A DNA stretch of 64,000 nucleotides from the NCBI GenBank assembly GCA_022846095.1, contig AP025583.1, positions 186,001-250,000 on the forward strand, written 5' to 3'. The notes beneath the pieces were generated by a model. That model searched no databases, was not told where the DNA came from, and saw nothing but the letters and a program-made list of their open reading frames with translations. Source of the DNA: Oscillospiraceae bacterium. GTDB taxonomy: Bacteria > Bacillota > Clostridia > Oscillospirales > Oscillospiraceae. Within the stretch, counting starts at the first letter, position 1. Each line of letters begins with the position of its first letter. Shown here piece after piece: positions 5,446-37,269 of the stretch. A program made the translations under genes and the position numbers.

Positions 5446-8079
<2,634 letters not shown>

Positions 8080-30201: not shown

Positions 30202-33198
30202 TTAGGCACCCAGATAGGAGTAGTTGGCGTAGACCGCGCAGATGAGCTTGCGCAGATCCTCGTAGAGGCCGCAGGAGGCGTCCTCCACCGCGTAGTCCTT
30301 CACCGCGCCGCCCAGGCGCACGCGGGTCTTGCCGCCGGGCAGCTTCACGAAGCCCTCGTTCTCGCTGTTCTCAAAGTCCTCCACGCTCCAGTACAGGGTG
30401 AACTTATCCCTGTAGGGGCGGCTGTCGTAGGGGCAGAAGGTGGCGCAGTTGCCGCACTCGTTGCACATGCCGTCCACGTGGATGATCTGGCGCTGGCGTT
30501 TGCCGGGTACCCAGACCGCCACGTTGGCCCGGTTGGGGCACACGTCGGTGCAGGTCTCGCACACGGTGGCGCAGCCCAGGCAGCGGCTGTCGTCGCAGGA
30601 GGAGCAGTCGGTGCACAGGATGCCCTTCTTGGCCAGGGGCTTCTGGTAGTCGGGGTTGATGTTGGATTCCACAAACCGCTCGGTGTCCGCCGCCGCGATG
30701 GCCTTCGCCGCCTTGGTGGCCCCCGCGATGGCCTCCACCACGGTGCCGGGGCCCTTCTGGCCGTCGCCCACCACGTAGACATGCTTCACGTTGGTCTCCA
30801 GGGTCTCGGGGTCCACCACGGCCTTGCCGCGCTTGTCGAGCGTAATGCCGTTGGCCTGGAACAGGTCGCTGTCCACCTTCTCGCCCACGGCGGTGATGAC
30901 GGTGCTGGCGGCAAGCTCCACCGTCCTGCCGGTGTCCACGGGGCTGCGGCGGCCGCTGGCGTCGGCCGCGCCCAGCTCCATCACGCGGCAGGTGAGCACG
31001 CCGTCTTTGTGGCCCACGGGGGCCAGGAGCTCACGGAACTCCACGCCATCCTCCAGCGCCAGGCTCAGCTCCTCCTCGTCGGCGGGCATGTAGCGGCGGG
31101 TTCTGCGGTAGACCAGGCTGACCGCCTTCACGCCGGGCAGGCGCTTGGCCACCCGGGCCGCGTCCATGGCGGTGTTGCCGCCGCCGATGACCACCACGTG
31201 CTCACCGGCGTCCACCTTGGCGGGGTCGGCCTTGGCCTGCTCCAGGAACTCGATGACGTTGACGGCCTCGCCGTACTCCAGCCCCGCGTCGCCCTTCTTC
31301 CAGGCGCCGGTGGCGAAGATCACGTCGGTGTAGCCCCGGTCCATCAGCTCCTTGGCGCTCTTGACCTCCACGCCCAGCTCGAATTTGGCGCCCATGGCCT
31401 TGCAGAGGGCCACGTCGTTGTCGATGGCCTCGTGGCTGATGCGGAACGCGGGGATGACGTGGCGGACGATGCCGCCCAGGGTGTCTTTGCGCTCAAAGAC
31501 GGTCACGTCCACGCCCTCGCGGCCCAGGAAGTAGGCGGCGGAGAGGCCGGCGGGGCCGCCGCCCACGACGGCCACCTTCTTGCCCGGCTGAGCGGGCTTC
31601 GCCTTCAGCTTGGGCAGCAGCGCGGCGAAGCCGTGCTCGGCGGCGGTCAGCTTGGCGTCCCGGATGTGGACGGACTCCTCATAGAAGCCGCGCATGCACT
31701 TGTCCATGCAGCGGTGGGAGCAGATGGTGCCGGTGATGAAGGGCAGGGCGTTGCGCTGGGTGATGATCTCCAGGGCCTCCTCGTACCTGCCCTCCTGCAC
31801 CTTCATCAGGTAGCCGGGGATGTCCTGCTCGATGGGGCAGCCGGAGCGGCAGGGGGCGGTGAAGCAGTCGATGAGAGGGACCTTTTTGTCGATCTTCTTG
31901 CTGGGGATGGGCTTCACGGGCTTCTTGAAGTGGCCGTTGACCTCCAGGTCGGCCACCATAGCGTCCACCTTGGACAGGTCCACGCCGCTCCAGGGGGCGC
32001 TGCCGCCCTCCAGCAGGGCCTCGCCGATCTGGCTCATGCGCCGGTAGCCGCCGGGCTTGAGCATGTTGGTGGCCATGGTCACCGGCCAGATGCCCGCCGC
32101 CACGAACTGCTCGATGGTGAAGATGTCCGCGCCGCCGGAGTAGGAGATGCGCAGCTTGCCGCCGAACTCGTGGGTGAGCTTGTGGGCCAGGGAGAGGGAC
32201 AGGGGGTACAGGGAGCGGCCCGACATGTACATCTCCTCGCTGGGCAGCTCGCCCGCGGTTACGTCCACGGGGCAGGTGTTGGTGATCTTCACGCCGAATT
32301 CCAGGCCGCGTTCAGCGGTCAGGGCCATCAGGCGGTGGAACATGGGCACCGCGTCCTCAAACTGCAGATCCTCCTTGAAGTGGTGGTCGTCGAAGGACAC
32401 GTAGTCGAAGCCCAGGCTGTCCAGGCGCTTGCGGGCGAACTCGTAGCCCAGCATGGTGGGGTTGCACTTGACGTAGGTGTTGAGCCCCTTCTCAGTGATG
32501 AGGTAGGTGGCGATGCGCTCGATCTCGTCGGGGGGGCAGCCGTGGAGGGTGGACTCGGTGATGGAGTCGGAGACCTTGGGCGAGATCGCCTTGACGTAGG
32601 CCTCGTCCACGTGCTGGAACTTATCCAGGTTGGCCAGGGTCCAGTCCATGCACGCCTGCCAGGCCTCGGTGCCCTCGGCGTTCATCATGCCGTTGATGTA
32701 GCTGTCGATCTTCTCGCTCTTGATGCCCGCCAGGTCGTAGCCCACGGACATGTTGAACACAAAGCCGTCGGGGTCGCCCAGGCCCAGCTCCTTCGCCATC
32801 AGCTTGCAGGCGAACCAGGCCTTCACGTACTCGGCCAGGGCCTGGGGCACGTAGAGCTCGGTGGACCACTCGCAGTTGTAGCACTCGTCGGCGGCGGTGA
32901 TGCAGGGCTTGCTGACGCACTTGGACAGCTCGTCGCCGTCCATGATCTGCACCGTCTTCACCTCGAAAAACCGGCTGCCCGCCGCGTAGGCGGCGATGAT
33001 GTTCTGGGCTAGCTGGGTGTGGGGGCCGGCGGCGGGGCCGTAGGGGGACTCGATCTTCTCCTTGAAGATGGGCCTGGCTTGGCCGTTTTCATGCCTGACC
33101 AGCTTGGATACGCCGAAAACGCTGCCCTGCTCCCGGTATTCGGTCAGAATCCAGTTCATCAGCCGGGCAAACGGCATGGGACGCATAATGTCGCTCAT
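30202..33198 (-). CDS. ygfK: YgfK-family iron-sulfur flavoprotein oxidoreductase
   Basis: A 998-residue protein of the YgfK family (annotated in databases as a putative selenate reductase subunit), now linked to purine degradation. N-terminal half: a dihydroorotate-dehydrogenase-like barrel. About residues 430-520: a GltD-type Fe-S segment (CFTAPCRSGCPIEQDIPGYL). About 540-830: two Rossmann motifs (VAVVGGGPAGLSAAYFLG; VVVIGGGNTAMDAAR) for FAD and NAD(P)H. C-terminus: cysteine clusters including CNECGNCATFCP for 4Fe-4S centres. It may pass electrons between NAD(P)H and the xanthine dehydrogenase or another redox step. The ATG at 33198 is chosen for the GGAGG eight bases upstream. It lies 71 bases after ssnA. 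Confidence 0.93.
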   Translation of the reverse strand: MSDIMRPMPFARLMNWILTEYREQGSVFGVSKLVRHENGQARPIFKEKIESPYGPAAGPHTQLAQNIIAAYAAGSRFFEVKTVQIMDGDELSKCVSKPCITAADECYNCEWSTELYVPQALAEYVKAWFACKLMAKELGLGDPDGFVFNMSVGYDLAGIKSEKIDSYINGMMNAEGTEAWQACMDWTLANLDKFQHVDEAYVKAISPKVSDSITESTLHGCPPDEIERIATYLITEKGLNTYVKCNPTMLGYEFARKRLDSLGFDYVSFDDHHFKEDLQFEDAVPMFHRLMALTAERGLEFGVKITNTCPVDVTAGELPSEEMYMSGRSLYPLSLSLAHKLTHEFGGKLRISYSGGADIFTIEQFVAAGIWPVTMATNMLKPGGYRRMSQIGEALLEGGSAPWSGVDLSKVDAMVADLEVNGHFKKPVKPIPSKKIDKKVPLIDCFTAPCRSGCPIEQDIPGYLMKVQEGRYEEALEIITQRNALPFITGTICSHRCMDKCMRGFYEESVHIRDAKLTAAEHGFAALLPKLKAKPAQPGKKVAVVGGGPAGLSAAYFLGREGVDVTVFERKDTLGGIVRHVIPAFRISHEAIDNDVALCKAMGAKFELGVEVKSAKELMDRGYTDVIFATGAWKKGDAGLEYGEAVNVIEFLEQAKADPAKVDAGEHVVVIGGGNTAMDAARVAKRLPGVKAVSLVYRRTRRYMPADEEELSLALEDGVEFRELLAPVGHKDGVLTCRVMELGAADASGRRSPVDTGRTVELAASTVITAVGEKVDSDLFQANGITLDKRGKAVVDPETLETNVKHVYVVGDGQKGPGTVVEAIAGATKAAKAIAAADTERFVESNINPDYQKPLAKKGILCTDCSSCDDSRCLGCATVCETCTDVCPNRANVAVWVPGKRQRQIIHVDGMCNECGNCATFCPYDSRPYRDKFTLYWSVEDFENSENEGFVKLPGGKTRVRLGGAVKDYAVEDASCGLYEDLRKLICAVYANYSYLGA

Positions 33199-33236
33199 AT
33201 GTAAAGCCTCCATATCGTTTTTTATTGGGTATTGCG

Positions 33237-33266
33237 CAGGGGCCGATGCCCACACCGGCCCGTCCC
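33237..33266. repeat. Partial intergenic repeat between ssnA and ygfK
   Basis: AGGGGCCGATGCCCACACCG and CCCG: the second palindrome module of the composite repeats, with one mismatch in an arm. Confidence 0.75.
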
Positions 33267-33269
33267 GCA

Positions 33270-34610
33270 TTAATAAGTACGGTGGTTGAGCTCGCCCCAG
33301 AGCTTTTTGGACTGCTCCATGGTCCAGGCGTTAATCCGGTCCTCGTCAATGCCCACGAACTCCCGGTCCTTGTAGACCACCTTGCCGTTGATGACGGTGG
33401 TGCGGCAGTTCTTGCCCATCATGCCGAAGAGCATGTGCCCGTCGATGTTGGCGTCAGAGAAGGGGGTGAAGGGCTTGTAGTCCATCACGATCACGTCGGC
33501 GGCGGCGCCGGGCTTGAGCACGCCCAGGGGCTTTTCAAAGTAGCGCGCGCCGATCTTGGCGTTGTTGCGGAAGAGCATGTCGGTGGCCTCGCACCAGCCC
33601 ACGGCGGGGTCGCAGGCGTTGTGGCGCTGCATGGGCAGCAGCACCTTCAGGCTCTCCAGCATGTCGTGGGTGTAGGCGTCGGTGCCCAGACCGATGAGGA
33701 TGCCCTTCTTGTAGAGCTGGAGCACGGGGGTGCAGCCCACCGCGTTGCCCATGTTGGACTCGGGGTTGTTGACCACCATGGTGTCGGTCTGCTTGATGAT
33801 GTCCATCTCGGCGGGGGAGACGTGGATGCAGTGGCCCAAAATGGTCTTTTCGCCCAAAACGTCGTTGTAGAGCAGGCGGTTCACCGGGCGGCAGCCGTAG
33901 TTTTGCAGCGCGTCGTACACGTCGTTCATGCCCTCGGCCACGTGGATGTGGAAGCCGGTCATGCCGTCGTTGGCCTTGACCATCTCCTCAAAGGTCTTGT
34001 CGGAGATGGTGAACAGGGCGTGGCCGCCGAACATAGCCTTGATCATGTCGTCGTTTTCGTCCTTCGCCCATTTGGCGAAGTCGGCGTTCTCCTGGATGGA
34101 CTGGGCGCATTTCTCCGCGCCGTCGCGCTCGCTCACCTCGTAGCACAGGCAGGCGCGCATACCCAGCTCCCTGCATACGTCCTTGATGGCGAAGAGGGAG
34201 CCGGGGATCTCGCCGAAGGAGGCGTGGTGGTCGAAGATGGTGGTCACGCCGTCCCGGATGCAGTCCAGCACGGTGGCGTAGGCGCAGGCGCGGGTGCCGT
34301 CCAGGGAGAGGTGGCGGTCGATGTACCACCACTGGCCGTCCAGCACCTCAAAAAAGTTGGTGGGGTTGAAGCCGTCGATAGACAGGCCGCGCGCCAGCCC
34401 GCTATAGATGTGGGTGTGGGCGTTGATGAGGCCGGGCATAATGACCTGGCCCTTTGCGTCCACAAATTCCGCGTCGGGGTACTTCGCCCTCATGTCGGCC
34501 AGCGTACCGACCTCCTTGATCATCTCGCCATCGATGACCACGGCGCCGTCTTCCAGGTAGGGCAGGGCCTCGTCTCTTGTGATGAGCCTTCCGTTCCCAA
34601 TCAGCAGCAT
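33270..34610 (-). CDS. ssnA: SsnA-type aminohydrolase of purine degradation
   Basis: A 446-residue amidohydrolase-superfamily protein. The metal site is visible: NAHTHIYSG (HxH) near 66, HIHVAEG, GHCIHVSP and LGTDAYTHD, giving the His/Asp set of the ATZ/TRZ subgroup of deaminases. SsnA is one of the genes tied to uric acid and purine fermentation in gut anaerobes; the exact ring-opening or deaminating step is not certain. The ATG at 34610 follows AAGGAAGGAA. It is the first gene after a leader of about 220 bases with a strong terminator. Confidence 0.92.
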   Translation of the reverse strand: MLLIGNGRLITRDEALPYLEDGAVVIDGEMIKEVGTLADMRAKYPDAEFVDAKGQVIMPGLINAHTHIYSGLARGLSIDGFNPTNFFEVLDGQWWYIDRHLSLDGTRACAYATVLDCIRDGVTTIFDHHASFGEIPGSLFAIKDVCRELGMRACLCYEVSERDGAEKCAQSIQENADFAKWAKDENDDMIKAMFGGHALFTISDKTFEEMVKANDGMTGFHIHVAEGMNDVYDALQNYGCRPVNRLLYNDVLGEKTILGHCIHVSPAEMDIIKQTDTMVVNNPESNMGNAVGCTPVLQLYKKGILIGLGTDAYTHDMLESLKVLLPMQRHNACDPAVGWCEATDMLFRNNAKIGARYFEKPLGVLKPGAAADVIVMDYKPFTPFSDANIDGHMLFGMMGKNCRTTVINGKVVYKDREFVGIDEDRINAWTMEQSKKLWGELNHRTY

Positions 34611-34828
34611 AATGCGTTCCTTCCTTTCTTGTCCGTCGAATCCAAATGATAAACATAAAAAAGTGCTCATTCTTTTGAATGAGCACCTGCCGCCGGATGG
34701 GCCGCGGCGCGCTCGCGCCCAGCCGAACAGCAGATGTTCATTCAGCCCGTGCGCAAAAGCACTTCGTTGCAGCCACAACCAAGTATATGGAGTTGTTTGT
34801 GTAATCTGTACAGTCTTTTCTTGTTTAC
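34611..34828 (-). ncRNA. Structured 5' leader of ssnA, candidate attenuator or riboswitch
   Basis: The transcript from the promoter at 34835-34863 would carry about 218 bases before ssnA. It can form ACAAC/GTTGT with an inner CCA/TGG stem, then GTGC/GCAC, GAACA/TGTTC and a GC-rich hairpin, and ends in an intrinsic terminator (34657-34687). A segment TGAATGA (34738-34744 region) can pair with TCATTCA of the terminator's first arm, giving an alternative antiterminator. It lacks the conserved purine-riboswitch core and the T-box sequence. Ligand binding is inference. Confidence 0.5.
34657..34687 (-). terminator. Intrinsic terminator in the ssnA leader
   Basis: Minus-strand GTGCTCATTC and GAATGAGCAC form a perfect 10-bp stem around AAAA, followed by six T. 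It ends about 47 bases before the ssnA start, inside the transcription unit. Confidence 0.88.
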
Positions 34829-34834
34829 GCCCCT

Positions 34835-34863
34835 ATCTTATCACATCTTTTTGCAGAAATCAA
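34835..34863 (-). promoter_or_regulatory. Promoter of the ssnA-ygfK operon
   Basis: Minus-strand TTGATT (34858-34863) and TAAGAT (34835-34840), spacer 17. Confidence 0.7.
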
Positions 34864-34872
34864 TAGTTTTTA

Positions 34873-34897
34873 TGCCTGTCTAAAAAATTTTTAGGCA
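34873..34897. promoter_or_regulatory. Palindrome between the divergent ssnA and PAS-regulator promoters
   Basis: TGCCT (34873-34877) and AGGCA (34893-34897) frame CTAAAAAATTTTTAG. It lies about 10-12 bases from each -35 box. A related CTAAAAATTTTTT lies upstream of the ygeX promoter at 44673-44687. Likely site of the divergently encoded regulator; inference. Confidence 0.5.
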
Positions 34898-34909
34898 ACA
34901 CAATTTTTC

Positions 34910-34937
34910 TTGAAATTGTTGTGGATTGTGGTACAAT
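34910..34937 (+). promoter_or_regulatory. Promoter of the YheO-type regulator
   Basis: TTGAAA (34910-34915) and TACAAT (34932-34937), spacer 16. Confidence 0.65.
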
Positions 34938-35009
34938 ATGTAGTATCGGCGCCGGGTTTTCCGGCAAAATCATGGAGGAAGGGAAGGGATTACGCTGAAC
35001 GCATCCACA

Positions 35010-35630
35010 TTGCAGTTTATGTTCCAGCTGGCGAAGGGGATCGCCCGCCAGTTCGGGCCGAACTGCGAGGTCGTGGTCCACGATCTCACCAGCAACGACC
35101 CTGACAGCTCTATCGTGGCCATCGAGAACGGACACGTCACCGGGCGAAAGCCGGGGGACGGCCCCTCCCATGTGGTCCTGGAGGCCCTGCGCGTGGGCGG
35201 GGAGAAGCTCAGCGACCATCTGTGCTATCTGACCAAGACGAAGGACGGCAAGATCCTCAAGTCCACCACCATCTACGTCCGGGACGACGACGGGGAGGCC
35301 ATCGGCATCTTCGGTATCAACTACGACATCACCCTCATGCTGGCCATGGAGGAGACCCTCAAGCAGTTCACCGCCACCGAGCAGGAGAGCCAGGACCCGG
35401 AGCCCATCGCCCGCAACGTCAGCGACCTGCTGGACGAGCTCATCGAGCAGAGCGTGGCCCTGGTGGGCAAGCCGGTGGCCCTGATGACCAAGGAGGACAA
35501 GGTGAAGGCCATCCAGTTCCTCAACAACACGGGGGCCTTCCTGATTACCAAGAGCGGCGACAAGGTGTGCAAATTCTTCGGCATCTCCAAGTACACGCTG
35601 TACAGCTACATCGACGAGGCGAAGGAGTAG
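35010..35630 (+). CDS. YheO/DauR-type PAS-HTH transcriptional regulator
   Basis: A protein of about 206 residues. The N-terminal YheO-like PAS domain shows AKGIARQFGPNCEVVVHDL, SIVAIENGHVTGR and GIFGINYDIT. The C-terminal winged HTH shows KVKAIQFLNNTGAFLITKSG and FFGISKYTLYSYIDE, the DauR pattern. The start is uncertain: AGGAAGGGAAGGG at 34976-34988 best fits a CTG at 34995, while the TTG at 35010 is the first standard start; no ATG fits. It is divergent from ssnA and surrounded by purine genes, so it is the best candidate for the local regulator. Members of this family often respond to small metabolites. Confidence 0.88.
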   Translation: MQFMFQLAKGIARQFGPNCEVVVHDLTSNDPDSSIVAIENGHVTGRKPGDGPSHVVLEALRVGGEKLSDHLCYLTKTKDGKILKSTTIYVRDDDGEAIGIFGINYDITLMLAMEETLKQFTATEQESQDPEPIARNVSDLLDELIEQSVALVGKPVALMTKEDKVKAIQFLNNTGAFLITKSGDKVCKFFGISKYTLYSYIDEAKE

Positions 35631-35666
35631 GGCTTGCCCCCGCCGCCCGTGCGCCTGAGCTTTGAA

Positions 35667-35708
35667 CGCGCCCCCGGCGGGAAACTCCCGCCGGGGGCGC
35701 GTCCTTTT
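35667..35708 (+). terminator. Terminator of the PAS-HTH regulator gene
   Basis: A 16-bp perfect stem (CGCGCCCCCGGCGGGA and inverse) around AAC, followed by TCCTTTT. Confidence 0.9.
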
Positions 35709-35730
35709 CGGCTTTGGCGGATAGGGCGCC

Positions 35731-35876
35731 CTGTCATTGCGAGGAGGCCCGGCAGGGCCGACGCGGCAATCCGTCCTATCCCCATATCGTAGGGGCCGAT
35801 GCGTACATCGGCCCGCTGCTCCAGGCCAGTAGGGGCGATTCACGAATCGCCCGTCCGCCATTGGCCGCCTTATCCG
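35731..35876. repeat. Composite intergenic repeat, copy 2
   Basis: Same three modules in the same order as at 14342-14486, differing at scattered positions. Together with the terminator it fills the stretch 35631-35915, which contains no gene. Confidence 0.9.
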
Positions 35877-35915
35877 CCTAAGGTACATAACGGGCATAGT
35901 GAATAAGCGCTTGAA

Positions 35916-36500
35916 CTAGAAAATTTTCGGTGATCTGTAAAAATTATTCCAGTGTGGCGCGGCCCGTGTGGGTTCCACGACAGTAACCATATCGAAATAG
36001 AGATATGCCCTCATCTCTTCTATCATATGGCCCATTTGAGACATGTACTGCTTGTTTAACAAAAGGCTCTCGTGGAACACCATTTCCCTCCATAAACGGA
36101 TGTTGACATCCGGGAAAAAATACTCATAGCTGAGCCGTTCATCCTCTATATCGTGCATACAGGGACTAAAACGCCTCATGTGATTCACCAACGCTTCCGC
36201 CTCGGTACGAAAGACGTCCATACCATAGAGGGCTACACATGCGTGAGGTGCTATCTCCCGATTGACCGAAATTTCTACCGCGCGTTCGCCGCAGAACCGC
36301 ACTATAAAAAGAGCCAAATCATTAAAATACCGTATCGTGTATCCATCTGTGTCCAAGTCCTTGGAAGTCCATGGCTTTGTCTGCTCCTGAGGGAAGTTTC
36401 TTTTGCACATGCGCTGTAATGTGCTGCGTATTGTATCAGGTGACATTCCCAGCGTTAAATCACCAATCCCTGTATGGGGAATAACAGGTAATAAATCCAT
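35916..36500 (-). CDS. Hypothetical protein of low GC content
   Basis: A 194-residue protein without signal peptide or membrane segment. It begins with VIPHTGIGDLTLGMSPDTIR, a short Gly-rich strand motif also seen in immunity-like and small cytosolic proteins, but I recognise no family. Base composition is clearly lower in GC than all neighbours, and codons end in A/T far more often, suggesting recent acquisition. AAGGAG precedes the ATG. It follows a membrane protein gene by 25 bases, so the two may be one operon inserted within the purine region. Confidence 0.6.
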   Translation of the reverse strand: MDLLPVIPHTGIGDLTLGMSPDTIRSTLQRMCKRNFPQEQTKPWTSKDLDTDGYTIRYFNDLALFIVRFCGERAVEISVNREIAPHACVALYGMDVFRTEAEALVNHMRRFSPCMHDIEDERLSYEYFFPDVNIRLWREMVFHESLLLNKQYMSQMGHMIEEMRAYLYFDMVTVVEPTRAAPHWNNFYRSPKIF

Positions 36501-36525
36501 TTGGTCTCCTTAAAATGAGTTGCAG

Positions 36526-37269
36526 CTACCACTGATTGGCCAGATACAAAATCTCGCCTTTTTCCCGGGAAATGGCGGCAAGGCAGAACTGCCCGTGGTT
36601 CAGGGTCTGCGCCTCATCCCCCCTAAAATACAGCACGTAGAGGGTGAGGTCGGCGGGGATGTCCTCTTCCCCTTCATAAAAGGGCAGGGAGTTTGCGTCA
36701 ATCCCGTACCCGGCGGCGTCGCCGTCGCAGAGGGAGCCCGACCAACGCGCGGCCCGGGCGCAGGCCGACTCGTACTGCGCCAGTTTACTGTCGTCCGCCC
36801 CGTATTGCAGCGCCACGGTGGCGCCGCCCAGGCCGGAGAGATAGTGGAATTGCACGTGCTCCGCGCCCTCCGGGATCCGGGCCGGAAAATATCCGAGGGC
36901 CGGGTCGCCGGGGTAGCCGCCCAGCTCCAGCACCTTTTCATATTTCTCCGGGTCTGCGGTCTCCGTCCGGACGGAGCCGAGGAGAATCGCGCCACCCGCC
37001 AAAAACACCCCCAGCAGCAGGCAGACGGCCGAGAGCGCCACGCAGGCCGGAACGAGCGCCCGGTCGCCGCCCCGCCTGCGCATATAGAGCGCGGCGGCGG
37101 CGATGAGCGCCGCGGGGAGGAAGAAAATCAGGGCCAGGGCGTAGTTTGGCGCCACGGCGTACCTGTTGAGCAGCAGGCACAGCGCGGCCGAGAGCAGCAG
37201 GAAAAACAGGCTCAGCGCGGCCGGAACCAGCCAGGCGCGGCGATCCGCGGCTGTTACATTGTTTTGCAT
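36526..37269 (-). CDS. Membrane-anchored hypothetical protein
   Basis: A 247-residue protein from the ATG at 37269 (AGAGGGG upstream). Three hydrophobic segments in the first 105 residues (WLVPAALSLFFLLLSAALCLL; ALALIFFLPAALIAAAALY; VACVALS-type segment LLLGVFLAGGAILL) precede a soluble domain of about 140 residues with Tyr-rich strands (YLSGLGGATVALQYG). The topology suggests an extracellular or cytosolic sensor domain tethered to the membrane. The family is unknown. It interrupts the purine genes together with the gene that follows. Confidence 0.6.
   Translation of the reverse strand: MQNNVTAADRRAWLVPAALSLFFLLLSAALCLLLNRYAVAPNYALALIFFLPAALIAAAALYMRRRGGDRALVPACVALSAVCLLLGVFLAGGAILLGSVRTETADPEKYEKVLELGGYPGDPALGYFPARIPEGAEHVQFHYLSGLGGATVALQYGADDSKLAQYESACARAARWSGSLCDGDAAGYGIDANSLPFYEGEEDIPADLTLYVLYFRGDEAQTLNHGQFCLAAISREKGEILYLANQW

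Follow-up and report, generated by a model that had tools for sequence, protein, structure and literature searches.

In adenine riboswitches of the pbuE type, which act as ON switches, the closing helix of the aptamer shares a strand with the terminator. Antiterminator hairpins of the BglG/LicT type are likewise small and overlap a terminator. The ssnA RNA motif, whose source paper is reportedly Weinberg et al. 2017, is catalogued in Rfam as RF03031; its type is given as 'Cis-reg', not 'riboswitch', the entry names no ligand, and our literature search on ssnA with riboswitch found no paper on the motif. The xanthine riboswitch (NMT1 motif) is described as sensing xanthine and uric acid and controlling purine-degradation genes; it is an OFF switch whose likely level of action is translation (PMC7373994). 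In a 2025 paper, SsnA and YgfK are placed in the breakdown of uric acid through yanthine: after XdhD has reduced uric acid to yanthine, the ring is opened by YgfK together with SsnA, and HyuA, YgeW, YgeY and YgeX then follow (PMC12507026).

We analysed the leader preceding ssnA and ygfK in a 64,000-nt window of an Oscillospiraceae bacterium (contig AP025583.1, positions 186,001 to 250,000). Its element shares with the ssnA RNA the hairpin with an internal loop, the full model length and the downstream gene, while its P2 loop is one base longer than in the RF03031 model. The expression platforms, the P0 helix of type I leaders and the ON logic described below go beyond the Rfam output and are proposals of this study. 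Unlike the NMT1 class, the window's leader has a transcription terminator as its platform, with a putative ON logic, and NMT1 gave no match at E up to 1. One class of ssnA leaders (class A) appears to work like the pbuE type, but the platform in the window is not of the direct-overlap kind, and the purine riboswitch also gave no match at E up to 1. The RNA-binding domain that recognizes BglG/LicT hairpins is absent from the host.

Family membership and genomic setting

The element is, with near certainty, a member of RF03031. Its single copy in the host genome scores 45.5 bits against a gathering score of 37.3, with E values of 3.1e-9 for the window and 2.1e-11 for the short stretch 34560-35000. 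The full-length alignment reproduces the consensus structure of P1, an 8-nt by 1-nt internal loop and P2, with no broken pairs marked. Over the whole window, the Rfam matches above cut-off are RF03031 and one tRNA; within 34560-35000, no other Rfam family matched at E up to 1, with the purine riboswitch, NMT1 and T-box included in the search. We therefore rejected a known riboswitch or T-box identity. An earlier note on this DNA had seen neither a purine-riboswitch core nor T-box motifs, had proposed covariance-model searches and had called the element a candidate attenuator or riboswitch; it is not a new candidate, because the motif is already an Rfam family. The note had missed the conserved core, the Rfam ssnA motif itself, just upstream of the TGAATGA segment it described.

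With the stricter filters used for multi-genome searches, at which weak matches are lost, 77 of 300 genomes from the host's family match RF03031 at E ≤ 0.001, and 70 exceed the cut-off. Matches were found in 6 of 391 genomes in the class draw, the host among them, and in 3 of 299 in the phylum draw; in both, the host alone is over the cut-off. The genus draw consisted of the host only. A pattern scan of named genomes returned at least 119 stretches, at least 80 of them as loci, and the matches listed include Oscillibacter, Flavonifractor, Dysosmobacter, Intestinimonas, Pseudoflavonifractor, Gemmiger, Fournierella, Subdoligranulum and Anaerotruncus.

The RNA is closely tied to ssnA. Directly downstream of 74 of the 78 family matches lies ssnA, and in 68 of these 74 ygfK is also present within the fetched stretch; the other four comprise one match at a contig edge, two weak matches without such a gene and one before another gene. 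The 80 pattern loci among the matches listed, a set that overlaps the family set, give a similar picture, with 76 before ssnA, two near a locus edge (L148 and L160) and two before other genes. At L134 (~nt 6100 to 4700 of its minus strand), the RNA precedes a dihydropyrimidinase gene (TIGR02033, 551.8 bits, cut-off 393), followed by a gene whose best match, MocA/YgfJ, is below its cut-off; this metagenome-assembled genome (MAG) carries a second copy, L163, before ssnA. At L158 (the same locus as L076), the second copy in an Intestinimonas MAG precedes a gene for a sulfide/dihydroorotate dehydrogenase-like FAD/NAD protein.

Among the 300 family genomes, 88 carry an ssnA gene over the cut-off, and 72 carry both RNA and gene. 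The 16 with the gene and without an RF03031 match count against our best explanation. Five genomes have an RNA match without a full ssnA gene; three of these show cut-off ssnA fragments and two have weak RNA matches. When the leaders of 17 RNA-less ssnA genes were searched, 16 gave no RF03031 match. The exception, L245 (303-350, minus strand), had been taken as RNA-less but scores 19.0 bits, below the cut-off, upstream of ssnA. Its P1 appears by eye, and post hoc, to be rewritten as UGACC/GGUCA, which is suggestive of a divergent variant. In the window, the minus strand continues with genes for an NCS2-type nucleobase permease, a Rid-family protein, carbamate kinase, YgeW, YgeY, YgeX and a selenium-dependent xanthine dehydrogenase.

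For leader comparisons, we removed three weak matches (G220, G067 and G185; 23-24 bits) and two duplicate sequences from the 78 family matches, leaving 73; G067 precedes ssnA and is counted in the 74 of 78 though dropped here. From the 80 pattern loci listed, 23 with a core region identical to one already in the set were dropped, and the 57 added brought the total to 130 non-redundant leaders. Because a fixed pattern served to find these 57, figures on core conservation refer to the 73 family leaders only. In all 73, the internal loop has the letters G, A, A, G, A at five positions, a lone G stands opposite it and the inner pairs of P1 are unbroken. The -1 pair of P1 is AU in 52, GU in 18, GC in 2 and AC in 1, and the last P2 pair is CG in 60, UA in 11 and UG in 2.

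Leader anatomy and terminator platforms

Table 1. Features of the ssnA leader and neighbouring genes (positions in the window)
Feature	Position	Strand	Basis
Possible regulator gene, divergent, YheO-like PAS + HTH	35010..35630	+	PF08348 130.7 bits, PF13309 72.3 bits
Promoter, TTGATT (34863-34858), 17-nt spacer, TAAGAT (34840-34835), TG before second box	34835..34863	-	Sequence and alignment
Possible operator, TGT-N9-ACA inverted repeat between promoter and aptamer	34798..34812	-	Association with regulator
ssnA RNA (RF03031), complete Rfam match	34734..34782	-	Model positions 1-48 of 48
Putative aptamer core	34743..34775	-	Rfam structure and 73 family leaders
P1	34775-34771 with 34747-34743	-	Rfam structure
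P2	34762-34759 with 34752-34749	-	Rfam structure
Internal loop GCAACGAA	34770-34763	-	Rfam structure
P2 loop	34758-34753	-	Rfam structure
Unpaired G	34748	-	Rfam structure
Switch strand (antiterminator 5' side), starting directly after P1	34727..34742	-	Folds and permutation tests
Antiterminator 3' side, holding most of the terminator's first arm	34678..34693	-	Folds and pairing tests
Intrinsic terminator, 10-bp stem of GTGCTCATTC (34686-34677) and GAATGAGCAC (34672-34663), AAAA loop, six T (34662-34657)	34657..34686	-	Sequence, scan and folding
Likely ssnA ribosome binding site, AGGAAGG	34619..34625	-	By eye from sequence
ssnA, 446 aa	33270..34610	-	NF005540 647 bits (cut-off 444); TIGR03314 567 bits (cut-off 455.5)
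ygfK	30202..33270	-	TIGR03315 1387 bits (cut-off 835)

The promoter boxes were read from the sequence. A consensus promoter scan did not list this promoter, which matches at 4 + 4 of 12 positions against a scan minimum of 9; nevertheless, TTG and TGnTAnnnT are invariant in all 18 aligned window-like leaders. Transcription would start at ~34828, giving a leader of ~218 nt, with ssnA beginning 123 nt past the end of the RF03031 match. The promoter and the length of the untranslated stretch agree with the earlier note, and in the alignment the promoter precedes the terminator, contrary to the downstream start that the note had named as a refutation.

On re-reading, the terminator is the perfect 10-bp stem with six T described before; counting two further pairs, its energy is -16.8 kcal/mol. 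It was the one terminator-like match in a scan of 33000-37000, in which shuffled sequences averaged 3.4, and we rejected a single-sequence promoter or terminator scan as proof, since by itself it is not significant. Significance comes instead from the leader comparison: a terminator of ≤ -12 kcal/mol is present in 121 of the 130 non-redundant leaders, compared with 18 of 390 dinucleotide shuffles. The TGAATGA segment (34744-34738) is complementary to TCATTCA within the terminator's first arm, as the earlier note stated, and the pairing extends further: AAUGA/UCAUU is followed by an A.C mismatch and then by 10 pairs, 34736-34727 with 34684-34693.

The 130 leaders were sorted into class A (22), type I (68) and type B (38), with two assigned to none; type B, to which the window belongs, is the remainder that is neither A nor I. 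In class A, the first arm of the terminator is the core's own 3' strand, an architecture similar to that of BglG/LicT-type hairpins. In the family set, class A comprises 16 of 73 leaders, drawn from 9 genera, and other classes occur in some of these genera as well; between 4 and 22 nt of the core go into the first arm in these 16, and at least 12 nt in 12 of them. The genome G014 provides an example, with an 18-pair hairpin built on GCGCGCACGGGCC. Some assignments are marginal: L191 (-2.0 kcal/mol) and the second copy in G286 (-8.8) have weak terminators, and G137, L116, G068, G163 and G205 overlap the core by only 4-7 nt. A terminator of ≤ -12 kcal/mol sharing at least 8 nt with the core occurs in 15 of 130 leaders and in 6 of 390 shuffles, and it is this frequency that carries information, as exclusion of the aptamer is close to the definition of class A. 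Because aptamer and terminator are mutually exclusive in these leaders, a stabilized aptamer would promote transcription. This exclusion is a new result, and it implies that class A leaders would act as ON switches.

In types I and B, the window included, the partner of the terminator's first arm is the strand that follows P1. We tested this antiterminator pairing by permuting strands among leaders, using the 30 of 38 type B leaders that met the conditions of the test. Cognate pairings averaged -10.38 against -7.51 for permuted ones in type B and -8.68 against -7.11 in type I; in each case, 0 of 5,000 permutations were as good, a value that takes no account of the tree, as is true of our permutation and Fisher values generally. 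Sets of clustered representatives (20 and 14) again gave 0 of 5,000. Leader by leader, the pairing outperforms 95% of shuffled arms in 21 of 30 cases in type B and in 25 of 68 in type I. The helix begins at the nucleotide immediately past P1 in 20 of the 30 type B leaders, and likewise in the window, with P1 and P2 formed. The shortest clear antiterminators of the set are those of L119, L150, L187 and L195, in which GCACCU right after P1 pairs with AGGUGU of the terminator.

Type I leaders can form a further helix, P0, between the 5' flank of the aptamer and the switch strand, which co-varies (0 of 5,000 permutations as good; 0 and 1 of 5,000 for clustered sets). In type B, no alternative partner for the switch strand was found in the 5' leader (853 of 5,000 and 984 of 2,000 permutations as good), and we left P0 out of the window's mechanism because it is unsupported there. 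The lack of such a partner counts against our best explanation, which has the ligand-free RNA of type B choose the terminator. A 5'-terminal hairpin upstream of the aptamer had a mean z of -1.06 in 34 leaders and +1.1 in the window; we did not adopt it.

The alignment of related ssnA upstream regions, a check suggested in the earlier note, thus revealed a structure that is both conserved and co-varying. Mutually exclusive expression platforms were found in two forms, a terminator/antiterminator pairing that co-varies and the direct exclusion of class A. Control of termination by the leader RNA is a well-supported prediction from these comparisons. The earlier note's idea that a ligand, RNA-binding protein or purine signal relieves premature termination at this site holds in part: the regulated terminator and competing strand before ssnA-ygfK stand on conservation, co-variation and a curated cis-regulatory family, and the relieving ligand is at present a guess from gene context.

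Direction of the switch and competing explanations

In our best explanation, the compact core hairpin with its 8-nt by 1-nt internal loop would be the sensing domain, and its folding would determine whether the intrinsic terminator forms or is opened by an alternative pairing. In the window and most of the family, the strand just after the core would pair with the terminator's first arm; in the remaining part of the family, the terminator would be made from the core's 3' strand. A bound ligand would hold the core, prevent the terminator from forming and allow transcription of ssnA-ygfK. Gene context points to a purine catabolite from the route in which SsnA and YgfK act, most likely uric acid, yanthine (2,8-dioxopurine) or xanthine. 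We give an even chance to the proposal that the element is an orphan riboswitch that relieves termination when such a ligand is present.

The sign of the switch is firmer for some leaders than for others. In type I, aptamer formation makes the antiterminator energetically more favourable in 57 of 68 leaders and less favourable in 5. For 33 type B leaders, the energies, which contain neither the ligand nor mutual stacking of the two helices, split into 15 towards the antiterminator and 13 away; in the window, aptamer formation changes the balance of antiterminator against terminator by +0.8 kcal/mol, a small shift in favour of the terminator. In 56 leaders outside class A, mean pairing of the lower part of the first arm, ahead of synthesis of the 3' arm, was 0.82 in the free RNA and 0.84 with the aptamer. 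Folding energies do not decide the sign at this locus, and our tentative extension of the ON logic to the window relies on its having the RNA family and the downstream gene in common with class A. The same RNA could act here with the opposite sign, P1 trimming the antiterminator so that a ligand, for example an end product, turns ssnA-ygfK OFF. The shift in the window and in the 13 type B leaders would fit this, as would the UGAAUGA/UCAUUCA pairing, which can extend into P1 by two pairs, a slight overlap such as an OFF switch would use. Yet the overlap amounts to two pairs only, this mode of action is impossible for the class A leaders that precede the same gene, and one family with one ligand and one gene would need both signs. 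We consider an OFF switch at this locus quite improbable.

Transcription may be controlled at the promoter as well, as suggested by the divergent PAS/HTH gene beside the leader, a layer that the earlier note did not consider. This regulator adjoins the leader in 28 of 38 cases in type B, 6 of 20 in class A and 1 of 66 in type I; the one unclassed leader whose upstream sequence is long enough also has it, as do 9 of 17 RNA-less ssnA genes (600 nt searched). Of 36 leaders with the divergent regulator, 13 contain the exact TGT-N9-ACA repeat, against 2 of the 89 without the regulator; other TGT/ACA spacers, from 4 to 14, occur in 0 to 3 of the 36. Promoters of type I leaders are mostly of the form TTGCAA, TTGAAA or TTGCAT-17-TATAAT-like and lie close to the aptamer. 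This correlation, which leaves the tree aside, suggests that regulation by protein and regulation by RNA substitute for or supplement one another from lineage to lineage. If control were exerted mainly at the promoter through this regulator and the repeat, the RNA would be a second layer or a relic here. However, the invariant core letters are kept in regulator-bearing lineages too, and the antiterminator pairing co-varies within type B, which argues that the RNA is still under selection. Predominant promoter control, itself compatible with the RNA mechanism, seems unlikely to us.

A related question is whether the core binds an antitermination protein rather than a small molecule. Such proteins bind small, highly conserved hairpins that overlap a terminator, RF03031 has no named ligand, and a regulator gene adjoins the leader in many genomes. 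That regulator, however, has the PAS and HTH make-up of a DNA-binding protein and is nearly absent beside type I leaders. CAT_RBD (PF03123) had 0 matches in the host and was found in 2 of 12 motif-bearing genomes, leaving 10 without. ANTAR (PF03861) is present in 9 of the 12, including a single copy in the host 1.7 Mb away, but is absent from three near-complete motif-bearing genomes. With each of these two domains, the antiterminator types tested here, lacking in some or most of the 12, we rejected a CAT_RBD or ANTAR protein as the general antiterminator, and a protein-binding core appears improbable. Attenuation by a leader peptide would start at the ATG within GAATGAAC, where an open frame of 24 codons (ATG..TGA) spans the switch region in the window. 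The ATG is missing from 16 of 38 type B leaders, and in the 22 that have it the predicted peptides range from 3 to 100 aa, the upper limit of the scan, and differ in sequence; the ATG itself is accounted for by pairing with CATTC of the terminator. As the peptide is not conserved among type B leaders, we disfavour this explanation and regard it as very improbable.

Possible role in uric-acid breakdown

The preferred reading is thus a ligand-responsive RNA that relieves termination before ssnA-ygfK. We put forward, as a tentative extension that may well prove wrong, that the ssnA RNA is a natural ON riboswitch, induced by uric acid or its reduced form yanthine, for the reductive uric-acid pathway of gut Oscillospiraceae. 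It would have evolved at least three interchangeable terminator platforms and would share its job with the divergent PAS/HTH regulator: both are present in the window's lineage, most type I leaders have the RNA without that neighbour, and some others have the regulator without a recognizable RNA.

With SsnA and YgfK assigned to the breakdown of uric acid, the RNA placed almost exclusively before ssnA and ON logic predicted for class A, the orphan RNA gains a short, testable list of ligands. If the inducer is uric acid or yanthine, the ssnA RNA would show how gut bacteria decide to consume the compound that causes gout, and would provide a small natural RNA sensor for uric acid or yanthine.
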